Program-made: the position numbers and the translations under genes | DNA from: a virus | Reading direction: 5' to 3' (one strand) | Virus record (IMG/VR): IMGVR_UViG_3300022200_001239 | Location: 1-28,807 of that record | DNA: 28,807 nt | Shown: positions 5,780 to 28,807 of the stretch, piece after piece | How the letters are laid out: each line of letters starts with the position of its first letter | Position numbering within the stretch: position 1 is the first letter of the stretch | The notes under the pieces: generated by a model | What the model was told of the DNA's origin: nothing | Seen by the model: only the letters and a program-made list of their open reading frames with translations | Databases searched by the model: none

Positions 5780-5813
5780 AGAGGCCAAAAAGCCTCTGGG
5801 TGAATTTTTTTTT
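5780..5813 (+). terminator. Probable terminator after the lysis cassette
   Basis: AGAGGC (5780-5785) can pair with GCCTCT (5792-5797) across a CAAAAA loop. The hairpin is followed after seven bases by a run of nine T (5805-5813). The gap between stem and T-run is longer than ideal. An upstream GCCTCTT (5754-5760) can pair with the same AAGAGGC arm, giving a competing structure. Confidence 0.45.
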
Positions 5814-15351: not shown

Positions 15352-15685
15352 ACAACATAAAAAGGCAATGCTTGATGCTCTGGAGAAATCTTTGGGTGTT
15401 GTAACTGCCGCTTGTAAGGCGGTAGGCATTGGGCGTACTACGCACTACCTATGGATGCAAGAGGATGCGGAATACAAAAAGGCCGTAGAGGACTTAAACG
15501 ATGTCGCTATTGACTTTGCAGAAAGCCAACTGCATAAGCAAATTAAAGACGGGAATTCCACCGCCACCATCTTCTACCTAAAGACAAAGGGTAAGAAACG
15601 AGGCTATGTAGAACGCCAAGAGATAGAGGCAACGGGAGGTAAGATGTTCCAAATAGAGATTCTTGGCGAAGATTCAAACCAATAA
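15338..15685 (+). CDS. terS: Terminase small subunit
   Basis: A 115-residue protein with the usual small-terminase layout: an N-terminal helix-turn-helix (residues about 8-38, LEKSLGVVTAACKAVGIG then TTHYLWM), a helical oligomerisation region (DVAIDFAESQLHKQIKDG, about 55-72), and TATIFYLKTKGKKRGY near the C-terminus, a segment common in this family. It recognises phage DNA for packaging and hands it to the large subunit. It overlaps both neighbours. Confidence 0.8.
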   Translation: MDKTEQHKKAMLDALEKSLGVVTAACKAVGIGRTTHYLWMQEDAEYKKAVEDLNDVAIDFAESQLHKQIKDGNSTATIFYLKTKGKKRGYVERQEIEATGGKMFQIEILGEDSNQ

Positions 15686-16817
15686 GGTATTCGGACACCT
15701 ACTACGCTCGGATAAAAAAATCATCGTAGAGCAAGGTGGTACTCGTAGTGGTAAGACCTACAATATCTTGCTATGGATCATTTTTAAGTATACCGAGCAA
15801 GAGACGAACAAAACAATAACCATCTGCCGTAAGTCCTTCCCTTCCCTCCGAGCATCTGTAATGAGGGATTTCTTTGATATACTACGAACCCACGACCTTT
15901 ACATAGAGGAACACCATAACAAGTCCAACCACGAATACTACCTCAACGGAAACCTAATTGAATTCATATCCCTTGACCAGCCACAAAAAATAAGGGGAAG
16001 AAAACGAGATCTTCTGTATATTAACGAGGCTAACGAGCTTTTTTACGAGGATTGGCAACAACTTATATTCCGTACAGAGGGGCGCATCATCCTTGACTAC
16101 AACCCTTCGGATTCCTTTCATTGGATTTACGATAGGGTAATTCCCCGTGATGACTGCGACTTTTTCCAGACCACCTACAAGGACAATAAGTTCCTTGATC
16201 AAAGTATCAAGGATGAGATTGAACGCCTCAAGGATACCGATGAGGACTATTGGCGTATCTATGGCTTGGGTGAGCGCGGTATGTCCCGTGCCACCATCTT
16301 CCAATTCCAAATAGCGGATGCCCCAAAGGGCAACCTCGTATCGATGGGGCTTGACTTCGGATTCACCAACGACCCCACCTCTTTGGTCAAGGTGTTCAAG
16401 GATGGTGATGACCTATACATCCAGGAGCTACTCTATCACACCAACCTCACCAACCAAGACATCAGCGACAAGTTCCACCAACTTGGCCTTACTCGCTATG
16501 ATGAGATCTGGGCGGATAGCGCAGAGCCAAAGAGCATTGAGGAACTGCATAGGATGGGGTGGAACATCAAGCCCACCGCAAAGGGGGCTGACTCCGTAAT
16601 GGCTGGGATAGACATCCTCAAACGCCACCGTATTCACGTTGTAAAGGACTCACTCAACGCCATCAAGGAATTCCAGAACTACAAATGGCAAGAGGATAAA
16701 AACGGCAACCTCCTCAATCGTCCTATCGATGCGTTCAACCACGCTATCGATGCAACGAGGTATGCTACCTTTAACAGGCTATCCCGACCCAACTACGGGC
16801 GGTATGCCATACGCTAA
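15663..16817 (+). CDS. terL: Terminase large subunit (packaging ATPase/nuclease)
   Basis: A 384-residue motor that pumps DNA into the procapsid and cuts it. Walker A is GGTRSGKT (25-32); Walker B is DLLYINEANE (116-125) with Asn before the catalytic Glu122, a variation seen in this group. The nuclease acidic residues are visible in GLDFGF, IWADSAEP and FNHAIDATRY. The length is somewhat short but complete. The start is TTG 15663, overlapping the small subunit by 23 bases; no ATG precedes Walker A, so TTG or another non-ATG codon must be used. Confidence 0.9.
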   Translation: MAKIQTNKVFGHLLRSDKKIIVEQGGTRSGKTYNILLWIIFKYTEQETNKTITICRKSFPSLRASVMRDFFDILRTHDLYIEEHHNKSNHEYYLNGNLIEFISLDQPQKIRGRKRDLLYINEANELFYEDWQQLIFRTEGRIILDYNPSDSFHWIYDRVIPRDDCDFFQTTYKDNKFLDQSIKDEIERLKDTDEDYWRIYGLGERGMSRATIFQFQIADAPKGNLVSMGLDFGFTNDPTSLVKVFKDGDDLYIQELLYHTNLTNQDISDKFHQLGLTRYDEIWADSAEPKSIEELHRMGWNIKPTAKGADSVMAGIDILKRHRIHVVKDSLNAIKEFQNYKWQEDKNGNLLNRPIDAFNHAIDATRYATFNRLSRPNYGRYAIR

Positions 16818-16840: not shown

Positions 16841-17530
16841 ATGAACATCATAGTACCCAACCGCCTTGATGAGCTAACGCTTGGTCAGTATCAACGCTTC
16901 CAGAAGCTGGAAGGCGATGAGGACTTCTTGGGGCGCAAGATGGTTGAGATTTTCTGCGACATCAAAATGGATGTCATCAAGAAAATGAAAATGGCTTCCA
17001 TCACGAAAATCAACGAAGCCCTTCTCAAGGCGTTCTCCACCCGACCAGAATTTAAGATGCGATTCAAAATGGACGGAGTGGAATATGGATTCATCCCCAA
17101 CCTTGAGGAGATAACATTCGGAGAGCTACACGATATTGAAACCACCATCAGCGATTGGCAGAAGATGAATGAAACGATGGCGGTTCTATACCGCCCTATC
17201 GTGCAAAAGATGGGCAAGAGGTATCGCATCAAGGACTACGATGCGGATGCTCTACAAGCCGAGCTAATGCGTAAGATGCCATTGGACATAGTGATGGGTG
17301 CGGTTGTTTTTTTTTGCGCTTTAGGGATGGATTTATCAAAAACTTTCCTGACATATTTGGAGAAGGAGATACAGAGCAACTCACAAGCGAATCGCAATTC
17401 TCCCACCGTTGGGGCTGGTTTCCCTTATTCTATACACTTGCTCAAGGCGATGCTACCCGATTTGATGATGTATCCAGGCTTAACGCAGCCTTCGCCCTCA
17501 CCTACCTCACCTTCGAAAAAGACAAAATAG
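16841..17530 (+). CDS. Tail assembly chaperone, unshifted product
   Basis: A 229-residue protein, the zero-frame product of a gene that seems to be read in two frames. The conserved-looking part (residues about 1-155: PNRLDELTLGQYQRFQ, then PNLEEITFGELHDIE) leads to a T9 run at 17307-17315. The remaining zero-frame tail ends Ser/Pro/Lys-rich, as expected of non-conserved read-through. Tail chaperones coat the tape measure during tail assembly. Its ATG follows a GTTATTTAAGTAGG motif without a gap. The role is inferred from the frameshift pattern and the tail context. Confidence 0.65.
   Translation: MNIIVPNRLDELTLGQYQRFQKLEGDEDFLGRKMVEIFCDIKMDVIKKMKMASITKINEALLKAFSTRPEFKMRFKMDGVEYGFIPNLEEITFGELHDIETTISDWQKMNETMAVLYRPIVQKMGKRYRIKDYDADALQAELMRKMPLDIVMGAVVFFCALGMDLSKTFLTYLEKEIQSNSQANRNSPTVGAGFPYSIHLLKAMLPDLMMYPGLTQPSPSPTSPSKKTK
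17307..17315 (+). promoter_or_regulatory. Probable -1 ribosomal frameshift site (T-run)
   Basis: Nine T in a row are read in zero frame as GTT-TTT-TTT-TGC, containing the heptamer T-TTT-TTT. On a -1 slip both tRNAs re-pair perfectly. The -1 frame is then open to 17571. I see no obvious stimulatory hairpin. Transcriptional slippage at T9 could have the same effect. Confidence 0.65.
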
Positions 17531-17571
17531 AAACCGAAAACAAGATTCTAAAAAATAGCATAAGACGATGA
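17314..17571 (+). CDS. C-terminal part of the frameshifted tail chaperone (-1 frame)
   Basis: An 85-codon -1 frame that has no ATG and begins at the slippery run. It encodes a protein-like sequence with WGWFPLFYTLAQGDATRFDD and LTYLTFEKDKIE, segments I associate with tail chaperone extensions in Bacteroidota phages. With a slip at 17308-17314 the fusion would be about 243 residues. Its stop forms an ATGA junction with the next gene, placing it in the normal coupled gene chain, which the zero-frame stop at 17530 does not. This is the strongest evidence that it is translated. Confidence 0.65.
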   Translation: MRFRDGFIKNFPDIFGEGDTEQLTSESQFSHRWGWFPLFYTLAQGDATRFDDVSRLNAAFALTYLTFEKDKIETENKILKNSIRR

Positions 17572-18035
17572 GAAATTTCTATCTGGTATTGGAGAAGATT
17601 AAAGAGGTGCTTGAGGCACACTCCCAAGTCAACGTAGTCACCTACGGGGATATTTTTGACGTAGACCTCAACAAGCAAAGCATCTTCCCCCTCTCCCACA
17701 TAATGGTCAACTCTGCCACCATTGCGGGGCAGGTGATCCGCTTCAACATATCGGTGGTTGCTTTGGATGTGGTAGATGAAACCAAAGAGGATGTAAGAGA
17801 CCAACAAGAGCCGTTCTACGGCACGAACAACCTACAAGACATACTCAACACCCAACTTGCAGTTTGCAACGCGGTAGTGAAGGCTTTGGAAAAAGGGAAT
17901 CTACACTTCGACAAGTATCAGTTGGAAGGCACTCCCCAATGCCTACCCTTCCAAGATCGCTTTGAAAACCTCTTGGCGGGATGGAACTGCACCTTTGATG
18001 TGGTTACTGCCAACACCGAAATTTCTACTTGCTGA
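17568..18035 (+). CDS. Putative tail completion / tail terminator protein
   Basis: A 155-residue protein after the tail chaperone gene. A helical start (LVLEKIKEVLEAH) is followed by strands (VNVVTYGDIF, VIRFNISVVALD) and a helical middle (LAVCNAVVKALEKG), a pattern that fits the small alpha-beta proteins that cap tails or close the neck. No catalytic motif. The neighbour on the 3' side is a gp10-like neck protein, which supports a neck or tail-end role. The assignment rests on position and fold impression. Confidence 0.5.
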   Translation: MRNFYLVLEKIKEVLEAHSQVNVVTYGDIFDVDLNKQSIFPLSHIMVNSATIAGQVIRFNISVVALDVVDETKEDVRDQQEPFYGTNNLQDILNTQLAVCNAVVKALEKGNLHFDKYQLEGTPQCLPFQDRFENLLAGWNCTFDVVTANTEISTC

Positions 18036-21992: not shown

Positions 21993-22147
21993 CAAAGGGA
22001 TTAGTTAGTTATTTAATTGAGGTACTCCAAGCCGATGCACACATCGGCATCTCGGAGAACGTAGAAATTGCAAAGGGAAAATATCATCTTCCAACCAATT
22101 GGAAGGAAGCTAAAAAAGTAATACGCAGACAATGGCTGAAACGGTAG
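21989..22147 (+). CDS. Small basic protein, 52 residues, between tail genes
   Basis: A 52-codon ORF linked by ATGA to the previous gene and overlapping the tape measure start by 16 bases. Its amphipathic start (KGLVSYLIEVLQ) is followed by a basic C-terminus (NWKEAKKVIRRQWLKR). It fills an otherwise empty 139-base gap, which with the coupling argues for a real gene. Its DNA includes GTTATTTAATTGAG at 22008-22021. Function unknown. Confidence 0.55.
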   Translation: MTKGLVSYLIEVLQADAHIGISENVEIAKGKYHLPTNWKEAKKVIRRQWLKR

Positions 22148-24033
22148 AAGTAGAAATTAAAGTCAAATCCAATATTGACAAAGAGACCGAGAAGGTAACG
22201 GAAGGTATTGGTAAAATTCAAGACAAGGCGGATAGTGCTGGAGAAAGTTTTACCACCCTTGGCGAAGCCGGGAAGGGTGGACTTGACATTATTGATGAAG
22301 CCTTTGGAGGGATAGGATCAAGAATCGTAAAGGTTGTACAAGGTGTTAAACAGCTTGGTGCTGGTCTTATTTCATCTTTCAAGGCAGGTATTCAAGGAGC
22401 AAAAGGTCTAAAGACCGCCATTGCTGCAACGGGGATTGGTCTTTTGGTAGCTGCCGTTGCTACGATTGCAACTTATTGGGATGATATCGTAGGATCTACA
22501 AAAGATGAGGTGAGTGCGATTGATGAAGCTATTCAATCTGCTGCGAGAATGAGGGAGGAGCAACAAGCTATTTTAAACATCCTACTCAATAGCGATAACA
22601 TTCTTCGTGAGCAAGGTAAAACGGAGAAAGAGATATTAGAACTCAAAAAGGCTCAAACGGAGGAAACCATCAAGGCATACGAGGCAGAGGTTGCGATATT
22701 AAAAGTAAAGGCCGAACAGCAAAAAGAAGAAGAAGCTGCTTTGAGAGAGGCTTATGAACAATTTGTTAGAGTAGGTGGCTCTCTTGGTGGGGGTGGGAAA
22801 GTTACTGAATCGGGATTTCAAAAATTTGCCGAAGCAGAAGGTTACTCTTTTGAAGCCGCTAAACAACTTGCAGAAACAGAAGCAGCTTTAAATGCATTAA
22901 GGAACACAGCAGCAGGATATCGATTGAGTGAGCAAGAAGCCGATAAAAAGGCAGCAGAAGATGCTGCTAAAACCCGAAAGGACAATTATGAGAAGGCTCA
23001 ATCTGATTTAGAGAGACACAACCAAACACTCAAAAAGCTACAAGATGATGCTCTAAATACACGAATGAGCAGAATTGAAGCGGAGGAAAAAGATGATTTA
23101 GTAAGGGAGAACTTGAGGTTTGCAAATGAGGGTAAGCGTTTAACTGCCCAACGTGCTGATGAAATCAAAGAAGCAAAAGGCAATCGTGAACTCATTAGTG
23201 CTATCAATGCGAAGTACGATGAATTGGCTTTAACAGCTCAACAAACCCACAACAACAATATAGCTTCTATCAATGAAGCAAGGGAGCAAGAGGCGTTAAC
23301 AAGAACTCAAAGAGCAGAGGACTTAAAACTTGAATTTATGCAAGAGGGGCAAGAGAAAGAACTTGCAGCTCTTGACATCAAGTATGAACGCCTAATGGCT
23401 GCGGAGGTAGGGAATGCAGAAGCATTAATCGCTCTGGAAAAGCTAAAAGCGGGAGAGATTGCAGCCGTACAAAAGAAAGCTGATGATGCTGAAATAGCGC
23501 GTATCCAAGCTTTGAATGACTTCAAGATTCAAGCAGCCCTTGATACAATCAATGTATTCAAGGACTTCAATGCATTATTTGACAAGGATAACGAGGAGGC
23601 AGCAAGAAAGGCATTTCTACGAGAAAAAGCCTTGAACCTTGCCGAGACGGTCATCACAACCTACACCGCAGCGCAGAAGGCATATACCTCTCAATTAAAC
23701 CCACTTGACCCAACGTCTTTAGTACGCGCACAGGTAGCTGCGGGTATCACTCTTGCGGGAGGCTTGGCGAGAGCAGCAGCTATTGCAAAGCAGAAGTTTG
23801 AACCAAGCGGAGGTAGCACAAGTGTGCCTTCCGCTATACCTTCCCAATCAGTACCAAACGCTCAAGCCATTACTCCCCAATTTAATATTGTGGGTACATC
23901 TGGAACGAACCAATTGGCGCAGAGCATCGGAAGCCAATTTGACCGACCTTTACGAGCCTATGTCGTAGGAGGCGATGTAACCACCTCACAAGAACTTGAA
24001 CGCAAAAGAATCAAAATAGCAACATTCGGATGA
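22132..24033 (+). CDS. Tape measure protein
   Basis: A 633-residue tape measure, which sets tail length and is ejected with the DNA. The N-terminal 90 residues are amphipathic and Gly-rich; residues 95-116 form one hydrophobic helix (AIAATGIGLLVAAVATIATY); the bulk (about 130-520) is Lys/Glu/Ala-rich coiled coil; and the end is Gln/Pro/Ser-rich with a basic stretch. With about 1.5 angstroms per residue the tail would be near 95 nm. It is followed by the head protease rather than by tail tip genes, which is unusual. Confidence 0.8.
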   Translation: MAETVEVEIKVKSNIDKETEKVTEGIGKIQDKADSAGESFTTLGEAGKGGLDIIDEAFGGIGSRIVKVVQGVKQLGAGLISSFKAGIQGAKGLKTAIAATGIGLLVAAVATIATYWDDIVGSTKDEVSAIDEAIQSAARMREEQQAILNILLNSDNILREQGKTEKEILELKKAQTEETIKAYEAEVAILKVKAEQQKEEEAALREAYEQFVRVGGSLGGGGKVTESGFQKFAEAEGYSFEAAKQLAETEAALNALRNTAAGYRLSEQEADKKAAEDAAKTRKDNYEKAQSDLERHNQTLKKLQDDALNTRMSRIEAEEKDDLVRENLRFANEGKRLTAQRADEIKEAKGNRELISAINAKYDELALTAQQTHNNNIASINEAREQEALTRTQRAEDLKLEFMQEGQEKELAALDIKYERLMAAEVGNAEALIALEKLKAGEIAAVQKKADDAEIARIQALNDFKIQAALDTINVFKDFNALFDKDNEEAARKAFLREKALNLAETVITTYTAAQKAYTSQLNPLDPTSLVRAQVAAGITLAGGLARAAAIAKQKFEPSGGSTSVPSAIPSQSVPNAQAITPQFNIVGTSGTNQLAQSIGSQFDRPLRAYVVGGDVTTSQELERKRIKIATFG

Positions 24034-27755: not shown

Positions 27756-28807
27756 GCAAGTTCCATTTTGTAAACCTATCGAGCTACACCTCTCCAGAGA
27801 TTAAGGAAGTGAGCAACCGCGATTGGGTAGAGTATGGGGATAGCAATGACTACTTCCAATACCTTATTGACCGCTTCCAGGGTAGCCCTACCAACAACGC
27901 TATCATCAACGGCATTTCCGAGTTGATCTATGGCAAGGGATTGGATGCTACGGATTCAGCGCGTAAGCCAGAGGCGTATGCCCAAATGAAGTCGCTTTTC
28001 AGCAAGGACTGTATGCGTAACGCAGCTTCCGACTTTAAGATGCTCGGACAATGCGCTTTTCAAGTCATATACTCCCAAGACCACTCAATGGTCACAGAAG
28101 TCTACCATATGCCCGTTGAGAGCCTACGAGCCGAGAAGTGCAACGAGGAAGGCGAGATTGAGGCTTACTACTACGCGAAGGATTGGAATGAGGTAAAGAA
28201 CAACAAGGAAACACCTCAACGCATTCCCGCTTTTGGTTTCTCAAACGAGGGTATTGAGATTCTATATGTCAAGCCCTACCGCGCGGGATTCTATTACTAT
28301 GCCCCTGTGGACTATCAAGGAGGTTTACAATATGCCGAACTTGAAGAAGAAATGGCAAACTTCCATTTGAATCAAATCAAAAATGGGCTTCAGCCGTCTA
28401 TGTTGCTGAACTTCAACAACGGAGTTCCAACGGAGGAGGAGCGTTACATCATCGAAAACAAGGTAGCGGAGAAGTTCTCTGGAACTTCCAACGCTGGTAA
28501 GTTCATCCTTGCCTTCAACGATAACAAAGAGTTAGCGGCTACCATTGAACCTGTGCAAATCAATGATGCGCATCAGCAGTACGCGTTCTTGGCAGATGAG
28601 TCAATGCGTAAACTGATGGTTGCTCACCGCGTAACATCTCCGATGCTCTTGGGTATTAAAGACCAAAGCGGGTTGGGTAACAATGCGGATGAGTTAATGA
28701 CTGCTTCGCAGTTATTTGACAACATCGTAATACGCCCGATGCAAGAAACCATTCTTGACGGCTTGGACAAGATCCTGGCTTACAACGACATCTCTTTGAA
28801 TCTATAT
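27752..28807 (+). CDS. Portal protein, N-terminal part (gene continues at the window's start)
   Basis: The 5' part of the portal gene, from ATG 27752 (ATGA junction) to the window end, 352 codons without a stop. It encodes MSKFHFVNLSSYTSPE, then RDWVEYGDSNDYFQYLIDRF, AIINGISELIYGKG and later RVTSPMLLGIKDQSGLG, all in keeping with portals of Bacteroidota siphoviruses. Through the terminal repeat it continues in frame at position 3, for a 591-residue protein (last 284 at 1-857). The portal forms the DNA entry channel and binds terminase. Confidence 0.8.
   Translation, partial: MSKFHFVNLSSYTSPEIKEVSNRDWVEYGDSNDYFQYLIDRFQGSPTNNAIINGISELIYGKGLDATDSARKPEAYAQMKSLFSKDCMRNAASDFKMLGQCAFQVIYSQDHSMVTEVYHMPVESLRAEKCNEEGEIEAYYYAKDWNEVKNNKETPQRIPAFGFSNEGIEILYVKPYRAGFYYYAPVDYQGGLQYAELEEEMANFHLNQIKNGLQPSMLLNFNNGVPTEEERYIIENKVAEKFSGTSNAGKFILAFNDNKELAATIEPVQINDAHQQYAFLADESMRKLMVAHRVTSPMLLGIKDQSGLGNNADELMTASQLFDNIVIRPMQETILDGLDKILAYNDISLNLY
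28671..28807. repeat. Right copy of terminal redundancy (circle junction)
   Basis: The last 137 bases repeat 1-137 with two synonymous differences (28672 G against 2 A; 28681 C against 11 T). Confidence 0.95.

Follow-up and report, generated by a model that had tools for sequence, protein, structure and literature searches.

The question raised by this locus is whether a run of nine T residues inside the gene starting at position 16841 of the window (the whole stretch of DNA analysed, 28,807 nucleotides of a 28.8-kb virus record of IMG/VR) is a programmed site of −1 frame change and, if so, what changes the frame and what the resulting proteins may do. The first-pass annotation had claimed a T-TTT-TTT heptamer in the right phase and an open −1 frame ending exactly at an ATGA junction, and both features were found as described. 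The run is read in the 0 frame as GTT TTT TTT TGC, which places U_UUU_UUU in the X_XXY_YYZ phase of the gene, and the −1 frame entered there is open up to the TGA at 17569–17571, which overlaps by two bases the ATG (17568–17570) of the next gene (Table 1). The unshifted product has 229 amino acids; the shifted one would have 158 + 85 = 243, with V-F-F-L-R-F-R as the junction residues. Two X_XXY_YYZ heptamers occur in phase in the gene, the second one, TTTCCCT at 17419, being unconvincing. The T9 run alone proves nothing, because runs of eight or more T or A are not rare by chance in the window (7 found versus 5.5 expected); the test is its conservation. Another T9 run is present at 5805–5813, outside the genes studied.

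Table 1. Features of the frameshift locus and its surroundings (positions in the window)
Feature	Position	Strand	Evidence or remark
Terminase large subunit (terL), directly upstream	15663..16817	+	Pfam Terminase_3 2.6e-25
Shared N-terminal domain of both predicted products, 158 aa, 0 frame	16841..17314	+	AF2 pLDDT about 90 over residues 1–150
T9 run	17307..17315	+	Sequence; kept in relatives
Slippery heptamer U_UUU_UUU	17308..17314	+	In-phase heptamer in 295/295 relatives with a −1 junction
Predicted −1 frame tail, 85 aa (L-R-F-R-D...), W-rich helical domain	17314..17571	+	Base 17314 read twice
0-frame tail of the unshifted product, 71 aa past the slip, stop at 17528–17530	17315..17530	+	Stop avoidance and synonymous constraint; first ~165 nt dual-coding
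ATGA junction, stop of the −1 frame over the start codon of the next gene	17568..17571	+	Sequence
Next gene, 155 aa, directly downstream	17568..18035	+	phrog_30964
Tape-measure protein gene, 4.6 kb downstream, non-adjacent	22132..24033	+	phrog_24676 2.1e-9

Relatives were collected from IMG/VR. Counted query by query, its scans recovered 12 and 41 loci at first and later at least 595, 587, 574 and 502, the best 80 being kept for the large ones. Searches with a single sequence recovered close relatives only, and alignment (profile) searches were needed for the rest. The loci matching each domain in IMG/VR are at least about 590. A scan of bacterial genomes added two MAG contigs, and a scan of cultured phages found homologues only in the Nonlabens phages P12024S and P12024L. 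Profile searches run per domain located both domains in 297 distinct loci. Most of them (251) carry T9 in the phase of the window, 26 carry T10 in three phases and 4 carry T9 in phase 0, the −1 relation being preserved in all of these last 30. Fourteen loci without the T-run read [GTA/ATA/GCA] AAT TTT, i.e., A_AAU_UUU (AAATTTT), and in these the codon differs (GTA, ATA or GCA) but always has A as its third base. Another locus (L331) has a partial match to the N domain and no heptamer that could be assigned. Altogether, 295 of the 297 loci show the −1 relation; comparison of homologues was the check proposed for a conserved frame change. Every one of these 295 distinct junctions, taken from IMG/VR contigs, MAG contigs and P12024S, has an in-phase X_XXY_YYZ heptamer, and 281 of them have a T-run of 9–10. 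A chance T-run was rejected as an explanation: the run itself is common by chance, its conservation is not.

It had also been suggested that homologues encoding both parts in a single frame, with a T-run one base different, would unmask a sequencing indel, and one such case was found among the 297 loci: L206 (on the same contig as L311) has T10 and both parts in one frame (478–1239). Its relatives L312–L323, 93–96% identical to it, retain the shifted T9, and L206 may be genuine or may come from an error of assembly. Apart from this in-frame fusion, the interpretation that the true gene is T10 (or T7) in a single frame, and T9 a sequencing or assembly indel, has against it that 295 distinct relatives and two genomes of cultured phages show T9 again, or a heptamer equivalent to it. 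Moreover, the selection for an open 0 frame past the site, described below, makes no sense under an indel. Such an artefact was rejected, its probability being negligible. On the basis of these comparisons, a deeply conserved, programmed −1 frame change can be considered well supported.

The −1 tail behaves in the relatives as a coding region under purifying selection, with a fixed length (237–279 nt), a conserved junction and conserved residues. It ends at ATGA in 223 and at TAATG in 37 of 291 relatives. The AF2 model of the −1 form, built on the natural fusion of L206, displays helical tail segments with lower confidence. The alignment used for modelling (A6) has the first three −1 residues slightly misplaced, and two larger alignments mixing N and C fragments (A4 and A7) were misaligned by MAFFT and left out of modelling.

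The 0 frame does not end soon after the slip site either. Its extension averages 194 nt, versus the 45 nt expected from synonymous resampling of the −1 frame. In 144 sequence clusters, whose counts share ancestry and are not independent events, the first 141 nt contained 7 stops in the 0 frame versus 265 ± 11 expected, and the third frame, used as control, contained 673 versus 676 expected. In the N domain, the two alternative frames likewise had stop counts near expectation. Avoidance of 0-frame stops was strong up to 165 nt (21 seen versus about 371 expected), weaker at 165–195 nt and gone after 195 nt (305 seen versus 289 expected). An early stop occurs only in P12024S and L213, the end of the 0 frame ranging from 141 to 264 nt in the other clusters. 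Synonymous differences amounted to 12.9% in the overlap versus 40.7% in the N domain (pairs with 18% amino-acid divergence each), and the constraint was greatest over the first 25 codons. Past the 0-frame stop, the ratio of synonymous to amino-acid change was again like that of the N domain (0.215/0.108 versus 0.407/0.181), as estimated from a small post-stop sample. The change of synonymous rate at the 0-frame stop is not a clean one, and the argument relies on stop avoidance and on how synonymous change compares with amino-acid change.

Since the 0 frame avoids stops and synonymous change is suppressed, it can be said, as far as sequence comparison goes, that the 0 frame is selected for ~55 codons and that two conserved C-terminal tails are encoded in overlapping frames. 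The hexamer TTTAGG, at 17320–17325 in the window, shows strong conservation of its DNA there and in relatives; it encodes Phe-Arg in the −1 frame and Leu-Gly in the 0 frame, and its conservation comes probably from dual coding. An open 0-frame tail that merely keeps ribosomes moving, for reasons of polarity or mRNA stability and with no functional peptide, would agree with the variable end of this frame and with the AF2 model of the unshifted product, where a confident N domain is followed by a helix that enters the 0-frame tail and extends to residue 183, and then by low-confidence prediction. Nevertheless, the residues of the 0-frame tail form a recurrent pattern across relatives, and neither this pattern nor the synonymous constraint peaking at the first codons is expected from stop avoidance alone, so that this interpretation seems unlikely.

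The explanation that we favour as a whole, a ribosomal −1 slip giving two products that form a chaperone pair, is given a probability of about 0.74. Ribosomes translating the 16841 gene would slip back one base at U_UUU_UUU with some frequency. Those that do not slip would make the 229-amino-acid protein, composed of the 158 shared residues and the 0-frame tail. Those that slip would make the 243-amino-acid protein, in which the same 158 residues are followed by the 85-residue −1 tail ending on the start codon of the next gene. Both proteins would be made during infection and, if they act jointly as a tail-assembly chaperone pair similar to G and GT, their ratio would be set by the slip frequency.

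Whereas the site, its phase, its conservation and the selection acting on both tails can be read directly from the sequences, a mainly ribosomal shift is the favoured interpretation of them. Ribosomal slippage is preferred to transcript slippage because the natural swap to A_AAU_UUU removes any homopolymer. In a FastTree phylogeny of 98 rows, with local support only, the site type changes 12 times overall, and the AAATTTT clade (10 rows) accounts for one change with support of 100, being placed within the T-run family, next to the clade of the window. The alternative is transcript slippage, already pointed out in the first-pass annotation as something that the long T-run could cause: the RNA polymerase would stutter at T9 and insert an extra U, and ribosomes decoding normally would pass from one frame to the other on the share of the mRNA that has U10. 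The run measures 9 or 10 in all T-run relatives, across three phases and in spite of the 12 changes of site type, and never 7–8; none of the 281 sequences goes below 9, although a heptamer requires only 7. Transcript slippage has been reported on T-runs with n > 8 (PMC3711429, which cites mxiE). Likewise, T_TTT_TTC, in which position 8 of the run is C and both proteins are unchanged, never replaces the full run; this absence fits transcript slippage, but a weaker slippery codon explains it as well. The length floor argues for some contribution of the polymerase, though flanking amino acids can also be its cause, T1 and T9 being explicable by V/L/I/F and Leu codons. On the other hand, the same −1 relation without a long homopolymer in the nested AAATTTT clade, and the constant presence of an in-phase X_XXY_YYZ, which transcript slippage does not need, oppose the polymerase as the main agent. 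That proposal stays as a live rival with a minority share of the probability, and slippage of the ribosome at a bare slippery site is the most likely mechanism of what looks like a real, conserved and programmed frame change. No downstream RNA structure was detected (mean folding z about 0 in 36 clusters), and a stimulatory structure is optional at the frameshifts of tailed phages (PMC5009743). A broader and rather doubtful idea is that a bare homopolymer slip site chooses between two separately evolved C-terminal domains within the same ~165 nt, with a floor of 9 arising from polymerase and ribosome slippage together, and that this is widespread in phages of Bacteroidota.

Concerning the function, the first-pass annotation had assigned the locus to the G/GT-type tail chaperones; the −1 shift agrees with this, while the 0 frame, which runs on under selection, departs from the lambda layout, and a chaperone remains plausible. 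At the sequence level, the gene does specify two products with a common N-terminus through a frame change. However, it is placed after terL rather than just upstream of the tape-measure gene. The order is conserved, with terL preceding the gene in 122 of 130 clusters and a homologue of the 17568 gene directly downstream in all 131 clusters with enough flank. The profile phrog_166, which matches P2 gpE too, matches 11 of 50 family members (best 1.8e-4), and a BFVD fold search retrieved members of the family, P12024S among the matches, and a single entry annotated as a tail assembly chaperone, with prob 0.99 but E 0.025. The link through phrog_166 was not confirmed by profile–profile comparison (hhalign), which gave no match with P2 gpE or Mu gp41. 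A fold search of PDB gave no match, and Pfam and NCBIfam gave no chaperone match for the frameshift gene. All considered, a tail-chaperone role is likely, somewhat above even odds. A frameshifted head-neck or connector protein, whose isoforms would be structural or sit at the head–tail joint, is possible but less probable: in its favour are the lack of strong chaperone homology and a location with terL on one side and conserved downstream genes on the other, 4.6 kb away from the tape-measure gene. Against it count the phrog_166 and fold matches, weak as they are, the lack of any other chaperone-sized candidate beside the tape-measure gene, and the fact that tail chaperones are classically marked by −1 shifting at a low level (PMC5009743).

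A distant fold match (E 5e-4) came from Flavobacterium phage 6H; the gene whose length agrees with it, gp10, has T_TTT_TTC, but its −1 frame stops at once and it was not counted. In 6H (L475, 9400–10927), gp10, probably the fold match R9VW65 (191 amino acids), ends near Cys-Phe-Phe-Tyr, and a −1-frame ORF occurs after the stop. As to the window itself, its positions 1–137 and 28671–28807 match over 137 bp with 2 mismatches, and a portal gene spans the join, as in circularly permuted or terminally redundant phage contigs.

The literature searched for this frameshift in Bacteroidota phages yielded no description of it. Current resources split the family into separate unknown families, phrog_32199 for the shared domain and phrog_38404 for some −1 tails; recognising the fusion would correct annotation widely. 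What is new here, judging from the comparisons made, is that the unshifted frame is also selected and that, among the relatives, which are phages of Bacteroidota and retain the site by the hundreds, most keep both overlapping back ends readable. For the frameshift of a tailed phage, a dual-coding overlap as long as ~55 codons is a constraint out of the ordinary, and the natural change from T9 to A_AAU_UUU inside one family makes the choice between ribosome and polymerase directly testable.

Compared with known systems, the locus resembles lambda G/GT in having one gene for two proteins with a common N-terminus, a −1 shift near the 3′ end and an adjacent next gene, here too without a clear RNA stimulator. 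In lambda, low-level −1 shifting sets a 30:1 chaperone ratio (PMC5009743), and HK97-like chaperone sites give 6–7% shift in reporters (PMC3711429). It differs from lambda in that the window gene follows terL and not the major tail gene, and in that the annotated T frame of lambda overlaps only the last ~18 nt of G, so that its 0 frame adds few residues, versus the ~55 selected codons of the family studied here. The distance from slip to stop averages 26 nt in the SEA-PHAGES chaperones (PMC10885494). P2 E/E+E′ shares a U-rich heptamer of the same kind (T_TTT_TTG) and the weak common profile phrog_166, but its 0 frame stops some 20 nt beyond the site, its gene abuts the tape-measure gene T and there is no profile–profile match. 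Shigella mxiE has a T-run of the length reported for slippage (n > 8, PMC3711429), whereas the window family keeps the X_XXY_YYZ phase and one of its clades lost the run. The true homologues are those of the Nonlabens phages P12024S and P12024L (Inhavirus), with T9 in the same phase, a −1 tail and a gene placed after terL; P12024S differs by a shorter 0-frame tail, with the stop 75 nt past the slip, and the records of both phages present the two parts as separate hypothetical genes (38 and 39 in P12024S).
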